Below are positions 1,917 to 7,478 of a stretch of 64,000 bases of DNA, one piece after another. Each line of letters opens with the position of its first letter. Within the stretch, counting starts at the first letter, position 1. This DNA is from Clostridiales bacterium (lineage in GTDB: Bacteria > Bacillota > Clostridia > Caldicoprobacterales > DTU083), in assembly GCA_012839095.1 (NCBI GenBank), contig DUOA01000086.1, forward strand, positions 1-64,000, in the 5' to 3' direction. Both the position numbers and the translations under genes were made by a program. The notes below the pieces were generated by a model that made no database searches, was not told where the DNA came from, and was given only the letters and a program-made list of their open reading frames with translations.

Positions 1917-1945
1917 TTTACAAGCTGACAGACCATTGATATAAT
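1917..1945 (+). promoter_or_regulatory. Sigma-A promoter for the CNNM transporter leader
   Basis: TTTACA at 1917-1922 and TATAAT at 1940-1945 are separated by exactly 17 bases. Transcription would start near 1952, about 170 bases before the start codon, giving a long leader. Confidence 0.65.
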
Positions 1946-1951
1946 ATTCTA

Positions 1952-2090
1952 AAGTATTTATTTAAGGTGGTGGGCATTTCGTGGACGATGGTCCTTGTAG
2001 CAGGCTAGACTTTCGGGAAAATACAGGTTATGCAAAAAGACAATGAGTCCCTTGCTTTCACATTGGCTGGGATTTATTGTCTTTTCTGTT
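1952..2090 (+). promoter_or_regulatory. Structured 5' leader with intrinsic terminator (candidate riboswitch)
   Basis: Downstream of the promoter at 1917-1945 lies a leader of about 140 nt. Its 3' part forms a 17-bp stem (2035-2051 with 2069-2085, two G-U pairs) with a 17-nt loop, followed by CTGTTTT: a good intrinsic terminator placed before the coding region. The preceding segment (about 1962-2034) contains short complementary runs (GGAC/GTCC near 1983-1994, CCT/AGG near 1993-2004, GCAT 1974-1977 with ATGC 2030-2033) consistent with a folded sensor. I do not recognise it as the M-box, ykoY, fluoride or guanidine class. The remaining bases between 1799 and 1916 show no gene. Confidence 0.5.
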
Positions 2091-2123
2091 TTATCCTATT
2101 AATTTTCCATGGAGGGCTATGAG

Positions 2124-3422
2124 TTGTTAACAAGTATATTGGTAATTGTTGTATTGATTTTATTGAATGCTTATTTTGCAGGGTCGGAGATGGCCCTGGT
2201 ATCCGTCAATGATGCTAAAATACGAATGATGGCTGACGGAGGCAACAAAAAGGCGGTTTCAGTCCGCAAGCTGCTCAGTGAACCCAGTAAATTTCTGTCT
2301 ACCATACAAATCGGGGTTACCCTGGCCGGGTTTTTGTCCAGTGCCTTTGCATCGGATGCTTTTTCCGACAAACTGGTGGATTGGATGCTGTCTGCGGGCG
2401 TAGGAATTCCTATAGGCATTCTGAAGCCTGCTTCCGTAGTTTTTATCACCCTTGTCCTGTCCTACTTCACCCTGGTATTCGGCGAACTGGTGCCTAAACG
2501 GCTGGCCATGCAGCGAGCGGAAAAGCTGTCTCTTAAGGTTGTCGGCCCCCTGCGCTTGCTGGCCGCTCTTGCTTCACCTGTAGTTGGGCTTCTTACCGCA
2601 TCCACCAATTTCTTTGTAAAACTGGCAGGAGGAAATCCTCATGCAGATGAAGAAGAGATAACAGAAGAAGAAATCCGCATGATGATTGAAGTAGGTGAAG
2701 AGAAAGGCACTATAGACGAAATTGAAAAGCAATTTCTCATCAATGTTTTTGATTTTGATGACAAGACCGTATCAGAAATCATGACCCACAGAACCAGGGT
2801 GGTAGCTGTTCCCATCGATTCGAACATGGAAGATATCCTGGCTTTGTACAAAAATGAAAAATATACCAGGATACCTGTTTATGAAGATTCAATTGATAAT
2901 ATAGTAGGTATCCTGCACGTGAAGGATTTCCTCCTCTATATCACCAACAAGGAGAATAAAGATTTCTCCCTTGAGAAGCTGATGCGCAAGCCGTACTTTG
3001 TTCCGGAATCAAAAAAGCTTGATCAACTGTTTCGGGAGCTGCAGCTTAACAAAACACACATGGTTGTGGTGGTGGATGAATATGGGGGTACTGCAGGAAT
3101 CATCACCGTAGAGGATTTATTGGAGGAAATAGTGGGCAATATCTTCGACGAGTATGATGATGAAGAGGAACACAAATATGAGAAGGTGGACGAGTCTACC
3201 TATCTTTTTGACGGTTCCATAAGCCTGGAACAGGTATCGGCTTTAATAAAGGTATCTTTGCCGATCGAGGAATATGAAACCTTAAGCGGATATGTGATCA
3301 GCCAGCTGGGTAAAATCCCCGAAGAAGGAGAGCATCCGGTAGTGGAATTGGACAGTCTGGTATTTAAGGTAGAAGAGATGGAAGACAAGATGATATCAAG
3401 AATCAAGGTATGCAAGGCATAA
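2124..3422 (+). CDS. CNNM/CorC (HlyC)-family membrane ion transporter
   Basis: Membrane protein of the hemolysin/CNNM family, linked in other bacteria to Mg2+/Co2+ efflux or exchange. The N-terminal DUF21 region (about residues 1-180) has several hydrophobic segments and the typical NAYFAGSEMALVS and GELVPKR motifs. Two CBS repeats follow (about 200-320, with MTHRTRVVAV and VDEYGGTAGIITVEDLLEEIVG). The C-terminal CorC_HlyC domain ends the protein. Length of about 432 aa is normal. An ATG at 2109 has no ribosome site; TTG at 2124 sits 8 bases after GGAGG (2111-2115) and is the better start. Expression is probably controlled by the terminator-bearing leader upstream. The transported ion cannot be told from sequence. 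Confidence 0.88.
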   Translation: MLTSILVIVVLILLNAYFAGSEMALVSVNDAKIRMMADGGNKKAVSVRKLLSEPSKFLSTIQIGVTLAGFLSSAFASDAFSDKLVDWMLSAGVGIPIGILKPASVVFITLVLSYFTLVFGELVPKRLAMQRAEKLSLKVVGPLRLLAALASPVVGLLTASTNFFVKLAGGNPHADEEEITEEEIRMMIEVGEEKGTIDEIEKQFLINVFDFDDKTVSEIMTHRTRVVAVPIDSNMEDILALYKNEKYTRIPVYEDSIDNIVGILHVKDFLLYITNKENKDFSLEKLMRKPYFVPESKKLDQLFRELQLNKTHMVVVVDEYGGTAGIITVEDLLEEIVGNIFDEYDDEEEHKYEKVDESTYLFDGSISLEQVSALIKVSLPIEEYETLSGYVISQLGKIPEEGEHPVVELDSLVFKVEEMEDKMISRIKVCKA

Positions 3423-3449: not shown

Positions 3450-4274
3450 TTGCTGATTGACTTTATGAAGGGGCTGGCCATAGGAATGGCAGCTATTGCA
3501 CCTGGTGTAAGCGGAGGGACCCTGGCGGTTGTCCTTGGCATCTATGAGAAAGCCGCCAATGCCATTGCCAATCCGTTCCGTGATTTCCGGAAAAAGGTTA
3601 AGGAGTTTTCTCCCCTGGCAGCGGGAGGGGTTGTGGGAGTCCTGGGTTTCAGCAATATTATAAGCTATTTGTTTCGCACTTATGAGCTGGAAGTTAAATA
3701 TCTCTTTATCGGCCTGATGCTGGGAACCTTTCCTTCCCTGCGAAAGCAGGCTGATAAAGACGGCTTTCGAATACTGTATCTGATACCCTTTGCCATAACT
3801 CTGGCTGCGGCCATCCTGTTTTCGATGGAAACGGATCTCATACCCGGCAGTTCCGGTGATGAGGCTTCACATTTCCTGCTGATTGTGCTGTATGGCGCAA
3901 TTATCGGATTTGGAACCATTATACCGGGAATAAGTGCATCGTTTATTCTCATGTATCTGAACGTCTATGATATAGTAATAGACGGGATTTCCCGGCTGAA
4001 TCCCTATGTTCTGATACCGGCAGGCATAGGTTTCGTCCTGAGTGTTCTGGGTTTTGCCAATCTGATCAGTCTCCTGCTGAGAAAAACATATGGATATACC
4101 TACTATGCAATTTTTGGGTTAACGGCAGGCTCCATACTGGCCGTTTTTCCGGGATTCGGCATCGGATGGCGGTATCTGCTCTGTTACCTGCTGTTGACCG
4201 GCGGATTTATACTTTCCTATTATCTGAGCAATCTTGAAAAACCGGATAAGAAAATACAGTTTCGCTTAAGATGA
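3450..4274 (+). CDS. DUF368-family polyprenyl-phosphate transporter (PopT-like)
   Basis: Polytopic membrane protein of the DUF368 family, whose characterised member PopT recycles undecaprenyl phosphate across the membrane for cell wall synthesis. The paired family signatures are visible: GMAAIAPGVSGGTLAVVLGI near residue 10 and GFGTIIPGISASFILM near residue 155, one in each half of an internally repeated fold. About eight hydrophobic segments fill the rest. The gene starts 27 bases after the CNNM gene, so they may share a transcript. The start is TTG at 3450 with AGGAAGG 12 bases upstream; ATG at 3465 is an alternative but would cut into the first conserved segment. Confidence 0.82.
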   Translation: MLIDFMKGLAIGMAAIAPGVSGGTLAVVLGIYEKAANAIANPFRDFRKKVKEFSPLAAGGVVGVLGFSNIISYLFRTYELEVKYLFIGLMLGTFPSLRKQADKDGFRILYLIPFAITLAAAILFSMETDLIPGSSGDEASHFLLIVLYGAIIGFGTIIPGISASFILMYLNVYDIVIDGISRLNPYVLIPAGIGFVLSVLGFANLISLLLRKTYGYTYYAIFGLTAGSILAVFPGFGIGWRYLLCYLLLTGGFILSYYLSNLEKPDKKIQFRLR

Positions 4275-4352
4275 GCCCAGGCATTCAGCTGTTATTTACT
4301 GTCAACCCACTGCAGATTTGCATAACTTCCAAAAGGAAACGGGGCTGTTTTC

Positions 4353-5594
4353 ATGAAGAGAGGTCATAAGAACTATTTTCTCTGCACTCTTTTTTTATGC
4401 CTTATTTTGCTGGTATCCTGTGTTTCCGGCGTTGTTGAATGGGAAAAGTATTATCCCGGTGCAAACAGTCAGCCTGAGGAAATGGATAAGCTCGACCCGG
4501 AAGTGCCGGATTCCACGCCGGAACCTGAACCGCGCGGAACAACAGCCATGCGGATTCGGGCTGTTGGTGACATCATGATGCATATGCCGCTGGTAAATGC
4601 CGCTCAGGTGGCAGCTGACAGCTATGATTTTACGAAATTTTTTGAGCATATAGGCCCTTATCTGGAAGGGGCGGACATTGTGGCGGGCAACCTGGAGACT
4701 ACCATCAGCAACGCTCAAAAGGGCTATGGCGGATATCCCATGTTCCGCACACCGGAAGATCTGCTTCCCGCCCTTAAGAGTGCCGGTTTCAATCTGCTGA
4801 CAACAGCAAACAACCATACCTTTGACGGCAGGGAGTTTGGTGTTCGTAACACTTTGGACAAGCTGGATGAATATGGTTTTCTGCATACAGGCAGTGCCCG
4901 CAGTCAGGAAGAGCGGGATCAGATTCTGGTAATAGAAAAAAACGACATAAAAGCAGGTGTTCTTGCCTACACATATGGTACAAACGGAATGGAAGTTACC
5001 ATATCCGGAGAGAACCTGCCCTTTATGGTAAATTATATTGACAGGGAGCAGATACGAAGGGATGTCCTGCTGGCCAGGGAAGCAGGAGCAGAGGTGCTGA
5101 TTGTATTCATTCACTGGGGTGATGAATATGTCCGTCTTCCAAACAGCTTTCAGAAGGAAACCGCCGATTATCTGATTTCTCTGGGGGTGGACATAATTTT
5201 CGGCAGCCATCCTCATGTGCTGCAGCCGATGGAAAGGCGCCCGGTAACCCTGGATGACGGCACTGAAAAGGAAGCATTTATCATCTACTCCCTGGGTAAC
5301 TTCCTGTCCAACCAGCGTGACCGCTACCGGGACAGCGGCGTGATAGTGGATGTTGATGTCATAAAGGACTATGACAGGGGAACAATTGAGCTGGGCGAAG
5401 TATCCTATACGCCCACCTGGGTATACAAGTATACTGAAAATGGCAGAACTGACTACCGAATTCTGCCGGCCGGGCAGTTTCTGGATGGAAATGATGAGCT
5501 GGATTTAGGCAAAACCGACCTGGAGCGTGTTCAGGCTGTCTGGTCGGAAACTGTCAGCCACCTGGGAACAGAAGGTGCTAAAGCCAACAGATAA
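4353..5594 (+). CDS. CapA-family metallophosphatase-fold lipoprotein
   Basis: Extracellular lipoprotein of the CapA/PgsA-like family (PGA_cap fold, a calcineurin-like metallophosphatase relative). Members are associated with poly-gamma-glutamate capsule but many clostridial ones have no capsule genes nearby, as here. A lipobox ending LVSC puts the lipidated cysteine at residue 23. The metal-binding motifs follow in order: AVGDIMMHMP, GNLETTIS, TTANNHTFD, IHWGDEY and FGSHPHVLQP, then the YSLGNFLSNQ motif near the C-terminus. Length 413 aa is normal. No capBC or racemase genes lie beside it, so a capsule role is not supported; a general envelope role is all that can be inferred. Confidence 0.85.
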   Translation: MKRGHKNYFLCTLFLCLILLVSCVSGVVEWEKYYPGANSQPEEMDKLDPEVPDSTPEPEPRGTTAMRIRAVGDIMMHMPLVNAAQVAADSYDFTKFFEHIGPYLEGADIVAGNLETTISNAQKGYGGYPMFRTPEDLLPALKSAGFNLLTTANNHTFDGREFGVRNTLDKLDEYGFLHTGSARSQEERDQILVIEKNDIKAGVLAYTYGTNGMEVTISGENLPFMVNYIDREQIRRDVLLAREAGAEVLIVFIHWGDEYVRLPNSFQKETADYLISLGVDIIFGSHPHVLQPMERRPVTLDDGTEKEAFIIYSLGNFLSNQRDRYRDSGVIVDVDVIKDYDRGTIELGEVSYTPTWVYKYTENGRTDYRILPAGQFLDGNDELDLGKTDLERVQAVWSETVSHLGTEGAKANR

Positions 5595-6783: not shown

Positions 6784-7302
6784 TTATATCTCTTCACTTT
6801 GATTGAAATGTGTCAGGAACAATCTTACTACTATGACGTATATGGGTACCAGGATGAAATTGCCAATAATGCGGGCCGGCAGCAGGACAATGAATGCCTT
6901 TCCCATCATCATGCTAAGCCACAGGGTATTCAGGGTCAGGGAAGTGATGACTGTTGTAATGCCGATGGTTATTGCCAGGGACTGCCAGGTCCACTTTTTC
7001 CGGAACAGAAGACTCATCAATCCGGGCAGCAGTCCGGTAAGGGCGGACGACAGTGTAAAGCCGGGAAAATAGGGACCCATGGGGTTAAAGGGATATCCGA
7101 TTAAATCTGCCAATGCACCGGTAATAGCTCCGTATACAGGTCCCAGCATGATGCCGCTTAATATTACCGGGATTTCGCCAAAACCCAGACGTATGTTCTG
7201 CACTCCCCCAATAACGACCGTATAGCTGAAAAACCTTGTAAGAACAATGTTGAGTGCAATAAACATGCCGGCAAAGGCAACCCTTCTTGCTCTGTTTTTC
7301 AT
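6784..7302 (-). CDS. folT: ECF transporter S component, folate type
   Basis: Substrate-binding membrane subunit of an energy-coupling factor vitamin importer, here most likely for folates. The 172-aa protein has about five to six hydrophobic segments, the family motif of small residues near the N-terminus (RRVAFAGMFIALNIVLTRFF), and IRLGFGEIPVILSGIMLGP typical of the FolT family. The ECF module (T and A components) must be supplied from elsewhere; the CbiMQO genes in this window are a separate transporter. A THF-riboswitch-like leader precedes the gene, which strongly supports folate as substrate. The GGAGGTG ribosome site lies 10 bases before the ATG. Confidence 0.85.
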   Translation of the reverse strand: MKNRARRVAFAGMFIALNIVLTRFFSYTVVIGGVQNIRLGFGEIPVILSGIMLGPVYGAITGALADLIGYPFNPMGPYFPGFTLSSALTGLLPGLMSLLFRKKWTWQSLAITIGITTVITSLTLNTLWLSMMMGKAFIVLLPARIIGNFILVPIYVIVVRLFLTHFNQSEEI

Positions 7303-7377: not shown

Positions 7378-7478
7378 TGTGGCAGCGGATGCGGAAGGGT
7401 ACCGCAGGCTGTGAAAGCCTTTCGTTCAGGGGCAACCTCCCATCCCCTGACACTTTACGCACCATTCCTACTCTGCAC
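7378..7478 (-). promoter_or_regulatory. THF (folT-type) riboswitch
   Basis: On the minus strand the leader contains the conserved blocks of the tetrahydrofolate riboswitch in order: AGAGTAG, TGCGT, AAGTGT, ATGGGA, GTTG, AACGAA, TGCGGT and GCATCCGCT, with complementary variable stems between them (CAGGGG/CCCCTG and AGGCT/AGCCT). Downstream, a CTCC segment at 7350-7357 can pair either with the aptamer-proximal GGAGAG (7368-7376) or with the ribosome site region (7313-7325), which suggests control of translation. Recognition is by eye from the known folT motif. Confidence 0.88.

Follow-up and report, generated by a model that had tools for sequence, protein, structure and literature searches.

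In pyrBI, a leader open reading frame (ORF) runs into the terminator hairpin and its translation prevents termination, with UTP being sensed through pausing of the RNA polymerase. In TnaC and SpeFL, a ribosome at the leader stop codon blocks the terminating structure. Sensing of Mg2+ through ribosome drop-off is already known from the enterobacterial MgtL-type leaders: MgtL, which precedes mgtA in Salmonella and E. coli, is short and has an acidic, proline-containing start (EPDP) at which early drop-off reports low Mg2+ (PMC11282234). Its readout depends on Rho and switches an importer on at low Mg2+. The acidic leader of mgtQ uses Asp2 and Glu5 (PMC8092293). CorC/YbeX and YoaL-mgpA represent CorC-domain genes that rise with Mg2+ and have an early destabilising sequence or leader; in CorC/YbeX this sequence is at the protein's own N-terminus and corC is induced by high Mg2+ (PMC12421838). 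YoaL and the region upstream of its gene overlap. In Bacillota, the M-box (ykoK, RF00380) exerts Mg2+ control of Mg2+ transporters in cis.

The leader described here, located upstream of a CNNM-family ion transporter gene, is most likely a leader-peptide attenuator and not a riboswitch, and is best explained as MgtL-like sensing joined to a pyrBI-like readout. It resembles MgtL in its shortness, in the acidic residues and proline of its first codons and in preceding a putative Mg2+ transporter gene, but differs in having an intrinsic terminator in place of Rho and an exporter-type CNNM in place of the mgtA importer, so that the regulatory sign would be opposite; no sequence homology to MgtL is claimed, and given the terminator and the CNNM gene the leader may work in an MgtL-like way without being counted among the MgtL leaders. 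As in pyrBI, the ORF runs into the terminator hairpin, but there is no sign of UTP-type sensing. The element is a separate leader, in contrast to the destabilising sequence within CorC, and it does not share the arrangement of YoaL. It shares its type of target gene and its cis location with the M-box, but neither the leader nor any other part of the genome it comes from has an M-box match (RF00380). It has no recognised sequence similarity to TnaC or SpeFL, and the C-terminus that recalls them is not universal in the CNNM set. No leader peptides of this type ahead of CNNM or mgtE genes in Bacillota were found in the literature searched, most of it freely accessible papers.

Layout of the CNNM leader

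The window, the whole stretch of 64,000 nucleotides that was analysed, contains the following features, with coordinates counted from its first letter.

1917..1945, + strand: sigma-A-type promoter TTTACA-17-TATAAT, 11/12 consensus matches, TG ahead of the -10
1964..1974, + strand: Shine-Dalgarno of the leader ORF, AAGGTGGTGGG, almost invariant in 7 genomes
1981..2046, + strand: leader-peptide ORF, 21 residues, GTG start, TGA stop, (V/M)DDGPCSRLDFRENTGYAKRQ, conserved at the peptide level within the family, throughout the order and in further Bacillota
2034..2051, + strand: 5' arm of the intrinsic terminator, including the codons AGA CAA TGA (R-Q-stop)
2069..2085, + strand: 3' arm of the terminator, followed by TTTTCTGTTTT, with the T-rich tract reaching 2094
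2111..2116, + strand: Shine-Dalgarno of the CNNM gene, GGAGGG, read from the sequence, conserved ATGGAGGGCGA block
2124..3422, + strand: CNNM/CorC-family ion transporter gene, 432 aa from TTG 2124, Pfam CNNM, CBS pair and CorC_HlyC

The original prediction placed here a sigma-A-like promoter, about 80 nt of potentially structured RNA, a 17-bp terminator stem with a T-rich tail ending about 35 bases before the coding start, and a CNNM/CorC gene, and read this layout as a riboswitch or a protein-controlled attenuator. The promoter holds, and both hexamers are kept in the aligned leaders of relatives. The stem is likewise borne out: GTCTTTT at its 3' side is conserved in the relatives' alignment, and the 126-nt leader folds at -40.9 kcal/mol compared with -26.6 +/- 3.4 for shuffled sequences (z = -4.2; 0/200 as good). 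A simple terminator scan did not list the hairpin (2034-2085), probably because its loop exceeds the 8-nt limit of the scan. The predicted gap needs adjustment, being about 39 nt to the TTG at 2124 and 24 nt to the ATG at 2109; the TTG is most likely the start, since relatives align from it. The segment of about 80 nt is present, but what is conserved in it is an ORF and not a structure: a short, Shine-Dalgarno-preceded and putatively translated ORF lies between promoter and terminator at 1981-2046. The attenuator half of the predicted layout therefore stands, and six further genomes of this family share the order of promoter, roughly 80 nt, terminator and gene.

The CNNM assignment is confirmed by the transmembrane, CBS and CorC_HlyC domains, all of which were found, and the best solved relative is 7m1u ('Hemolysin, contains CBS domains'). 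By family precedent (MpfA, PMC6711546; PMC12421838), the protein may be a Mg2+ exporter. It also has a sub-threshold NCBIfam match to PaeA, a CNNM relative that exports polyamines (PMC12421838). On the same strand 3' of the CNNM gene, 3450-5594 contains a polyprenyl-phosphate-transporter-like gene (VCA0040-like/PopT) and a PGA_cap gene, and the three genes possibly share a transcript. Elsewhere in the window, a THF riboswitch (RF01831, 81 bits; 7381-7477, - strand) lies ahead of the gene for a 172-aa membrane protein (6784-7302, - strand).

Conservation and spread of the leader peptide

The leader peptide of the window (1981-2046) reads VDDGPCSRLDFRENTGYAKRQ, followed by the stop. When 61 genomes were searched with it as DNA, the leader turned up in six others, belonging to several genera of the same family. 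The conserved block AAGGTGGTGGG...GTGGACGAYGGTCC in the alignment, for which L007 was taken from the opposite strand, corresponds to the Shine-Dalgarno and the GTG start. The frame is open to the stop in 7/7 family genomes, with the product (V/M)D[DE]GP[CG]...RQ before the stop, and the length differences among the seven leaders are exclusively multiples of three. That a leader peptide is encoded upstream of the CNNM gene is near certain, and the sequence suggests that it is translated. A search of a plasmid collection gave no match to the leader.

In other families of the order, CNNM orthologues are 55-61% identical as proteins and their leaders match as peptides, not as DNA: MDDSPGG...IGYYIRA, MDDDSGD...IGYYMRA and MDDNPGD...IYLRW, each followed by a stop codon, with MDDNPGSKTG... 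in another genus of the family to which the window belongs. Searched in its exact f1 form, the leader has matches confined to that family except for L041, and a broader form was derived from the CNNM orthologues. A CNNM alignment run against some 85,000 species genomes gave 80 named loci, among which are stop-terminated leaders MDDEPGE...FYHLRP in an Acetobacterium MAG, MDDEPGE...FYHRSP in a Bacillales MAG, and MDDDIGD...FYYLRP and MEDSFGE...FYYPRP, as well as NASDDPESS and SDSDDPESS in two cultured Paenibacillus. Across Bacillota the CNNM leaders are analogous, with M-D-D-x-P-G at the start and, in most of them, Y-x-x-R-[QAP]-stop at the end. The acidic start with its proline is the part of the peptide that occurs most widely. 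Residues 2-3 are [DE][DE] in 24/28 leaders, 19 of which have Pro5, and D2, D3, P5 and G6 are retained with differing codons. At the other end, Arg occupies position -2 in 20/28 leaders (codons AGA, AGG, CGG and CGT) and Tyr position -5 in 16/28 (TAT and TAC), although L049, L051, L116 and L119 lack this C-terminus and keep the acidic start. Conservation is poor in the middle of the peptide, and peptide length ranges from 18 to 40 residues. No leader has a run of a single codon, and classical amino-acid attenuation was rejected on this ground. In an Erysipelotrichaceae CNNM locus (L099), MNDDPGDED... precedes the gene in a frame that appears to continue across the terminator hairpin as far as the start of the CNNM gene and may represent a translationally coupled variant.

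The leader stop codon of the window, UGA at 2044-2046, falls within the terminator 5' arm. The same is seen in most lineages, and the position of the ORF is thus able to alter terminator folding. In most members of families f1, f3 and f4, and in L094 and L127, the distance from the start of the arm to the end of the stop codon is exactly 10 nt despite differing hairpin sequences; an Acetobacterium MAG is among the carriers of this offset of -10 nt, and other lineages have offsets of -9, -8, -2 and +2. In L056 and L085 the leader ORF passes through the hairpin, and in L074, L075, L077, L078 and L084 no convincing terminator was detected by the same procedure.

Statistical support was sought under identical rules for all genes of the retrieved loci and the window, the flanks serving as background. 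An upstream ORF with a Shine-Dalgarno and an acidic N-terminus (at least 2 acidic residues in positions 2-6) precedes 25/74 CNNM genes and 1/215 other genes (Fisher 1e-15, or 6.5e-6 when reduced to about 10 independent lineages); as the acidic rule was post hoc, suggested by the first leaders seen, and the sampled loci are related to each other, these P values are descriptive and not proof. In the class, 245 genomes together contain the pattern GGAGG-(MDDxPG) 3 times, and 2 of these matches are CNNM leaders of this set. Frame 0 is free of stops, compared with 8-18 stops in the other frames, and in two further groups synonymous changes are enriched in frame 0 (2.0 and 1.9, compared with 0.58-1.24 in other frames). 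For the family of the window itself, the synonymous-change test gives near-equal ratios (1.38 in frame and 1.34 in frame +1), because the leader is short and overlaps the hairpin.

Leaders of mgtE and acidic starts of CNNM proteins

About a dozen genomes of the order carry leaders ahead of mgtE, the gene of a Mg2+ importer, which read MDPGPLP, MVLDSGPVP or MDYPDPLP and share their Asp/Pro start with enterobacterial MgtL (MEPDPTPLP). The window's own genome has one, MVLDSGPVP... at G000:C27, about 3544-3660 (loci L167, L189 and L203), and further Asp/Pro leaders precede mgtE at L165, L166, L168, L172, L173, L175, L177, L188, L191, L199 and L201. At L176, ahead of mgtE, there is a Shine-Dalgarno-preceded, leader-like ORF, MDAGSSSGTIPDRRRNEYINTAAASACS followed by a stop, that lacks the D/P motif. 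A search with MDxxP[VL]P gave extra matches antisense to another gene, presumably guaB, which were set aside on inspection. The mgtE leaders end beside the mgtE ribosome-binding site and overlap a predicted switch of that site: among eight mgtE sequences folded, predicted accessibility of the Shine-Dalgarno usually falls on removal of the first arm, from 0.87 to 0.34 in L201 and from 0.74 to 0.46 in L199, and barely changes in L191. In f3 genomes, the mgtE Asp/Pro leader lies downstream of an M-box, and an M-box and the CNNM leader coexist in several genomes of f3 and f4.

CNNM proteins whose genes are leaderless often start with MDPDP, MDDPGP, MDDPDP or MSDDP themselves. Their own N-terminus has at least 2 acidic residues and Pro in 11/69 CNNM genes, compared with 1/156 other genes. 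Eight leaderless loci with acidic/proline starts (L122, L126, L128, L140, L143, L148, L150 and L106) include MDDPDPAG, MDDPGP, MESVPEPEPG, MDPDPA, MDDLPG and MPDPGS. Leader and own motif occur together in 1 of the 98 CNNM loci sampled, the leader only in 27, the own motif only in 24 and neither in 46 (P = 0.0015, ignoring kinship); the 46 with neither, nearly half, count against the mechanism proposed below.

Proposed mechanism and alternatives

From the computed ORF, its conservation, its overlap with the terminator and the association with CNNM and mgtE genes, we infer a mechanism whose further elements, namely translation, ribosome occlusion, drop-off, Mg2+ as the signal and the direction of transport, are worded conditionally here. 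On balance, we favour a ribosome-controlled transcription attenuator in which the ribosome drops off the leader early at low Mg2+. The transcript would start near 1952, with a ribosome initiating at the GTG at 1981 and, on completing the 21-codon leader, reaching the UGA at 2044-2046, where it would cover the terminator 5' arm. Were it there while RNA polymerase crosses the U-tract, the hairpin would not form and the CNNM gene would be transcribed; upon early drop-off the hairpin would form and transcription would end. In E. coli, one report describes an intrinsic terminator just behind a translated gene as almost completely repressed (PMC4824070). The M-D-D-G-P start, acidic and then proline, would destabilise the ribosome intrinsically, and more so at low Mg2+, so that the CNNM exporter would be made when Mg2+ is plentiful. 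At mgtE in the same genome, an aborted leader would instead free the ribosome-binding site and switch the importer on, a wiring opposite to that of CNNM.

Several observations bear on this mechanism. The acidic motif of the CNNM leaders is shorter than proven destabilising sequences, and Pro5 is missing in a few. In Bacillus subtilis, transcription and translation are largely uncoupled, a serious caveat that weakens any mechanism in which a ribosome has to follow RNA polymerase closely, though one study documents attenuation by leader peptides with polymerase pausing in Bacillus (PMC6851288). The attenuator has a recurrent MDDxPG start, is associated with the CNNM genes of Bacillota, has a parallel on mgtE and is probably a ribosome-based Mg2+ control. 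A broader proposal, which we advance tentatively and with rather less conviction than the attenuator itself, is that in many Bacillota, including this lineage without an M-box, oppositely wired Asp/Pro leaders run Mg2+ export (CNNM) and import (mgtE), the same motif appears in leaderless CNNM starts, and ribosome stability is the Mg2+ sensor.

Destabilisation leaves the Y-x-x-R-[QAP] end of the leader unexplained; base-pairing to the hairpin's U-tract side accounts for it in part, and it could mean stalling at the stop. A ligand-dependent arrest peptide, on which polyamine or another ligand stalls the ribosome at Y-x-x-R-[QAP]-stop as in TnaC and SpeFL and so blocks the terminator, would account for the retention of Arg at -2 through four codons and of Tyr at -5 through both, and for the fixed stop within the terminator arm, and would fit the polyamine export by PaeA (PMC12421838). 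We consider it unlikely, given the four leaders that have the acidic start only, the part of the C-terminus explained by pairing, and the recurrence of the N-terminal motif on mgtE and on CNNM proteins where no such C-terminus follows. Less probable again is that the leader reports general translation status (initiation capacity, EF-P/ABC-F, antibiotics) in place of Mg2+, with CNNM following the state of the ribosome. Any drop in leader translation would indeed let the terminator form, EttA has an effect at early acidic residues and on MgtL (PMC11282234), as ABC-F/EF-P factors have at charged and Asp-Pro motifs (PMC11381351), but D/P leaders are strongly associated with two families of Mg2+ transporters in the same order.

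The original prediction had held an ion-sensing RNA possible, and a metal-sensing riboswitch with an aptamer outside the known classes would fit the order of promoter, leader and terminator and the strong DNA conservation inside the family. Its observation that the segment matches none of the metal, fluoride or guanidine classes is upheld, as Rfam covariance models gave no match to the leader at the gathering threshold, and at a relaxed one only a microRNA and an sRNA hairpin came up, by chance. The check for covariation it had proposed went against an aptamer: RNAalifold on six leaders, a small set that is weak evidence alone, found 0 pairs with changes on both sides, and outside the terminator no pair covaries. 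A GGAC/GUCC hairpin that is invariant inside the family is missing in f3/f4 by inspection, and is thus not a general element. Beyond the family and across orders, the nucleotides diverge and the conserved letters encode the peptide. A riboswitch is therefore very improbable; the predicted link to Mg2+ or ion handling probably survives, but sensing by the RNA is unsupported, and if an ion is sensed, a ribosome on the leader peptide is the likelier sensor. That the ORF encodes a small functional protein sharing the transcript, with an ordinary leaky terminator behind it, is scarcely credible despite conservation of both peptide ends, given the variable middle and length and the stop codon fixed within the terminator arm.

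The CNNM leader, read as a leader-peptide attenuator, is an example of a conserved 'orphan RNA' that proves to be a peptide gene. If the drop-off mechanism is true, it would explain, in terms of regulation, the acidic/proline starts seen in CNNM proteins, and independent leaders of the same type on unrelated Mg2+ transporters of Bacillota, wired in opposite directions, would point to ribosome stability as a general and repeatedly evolved gauge of intracellular Mg2+.
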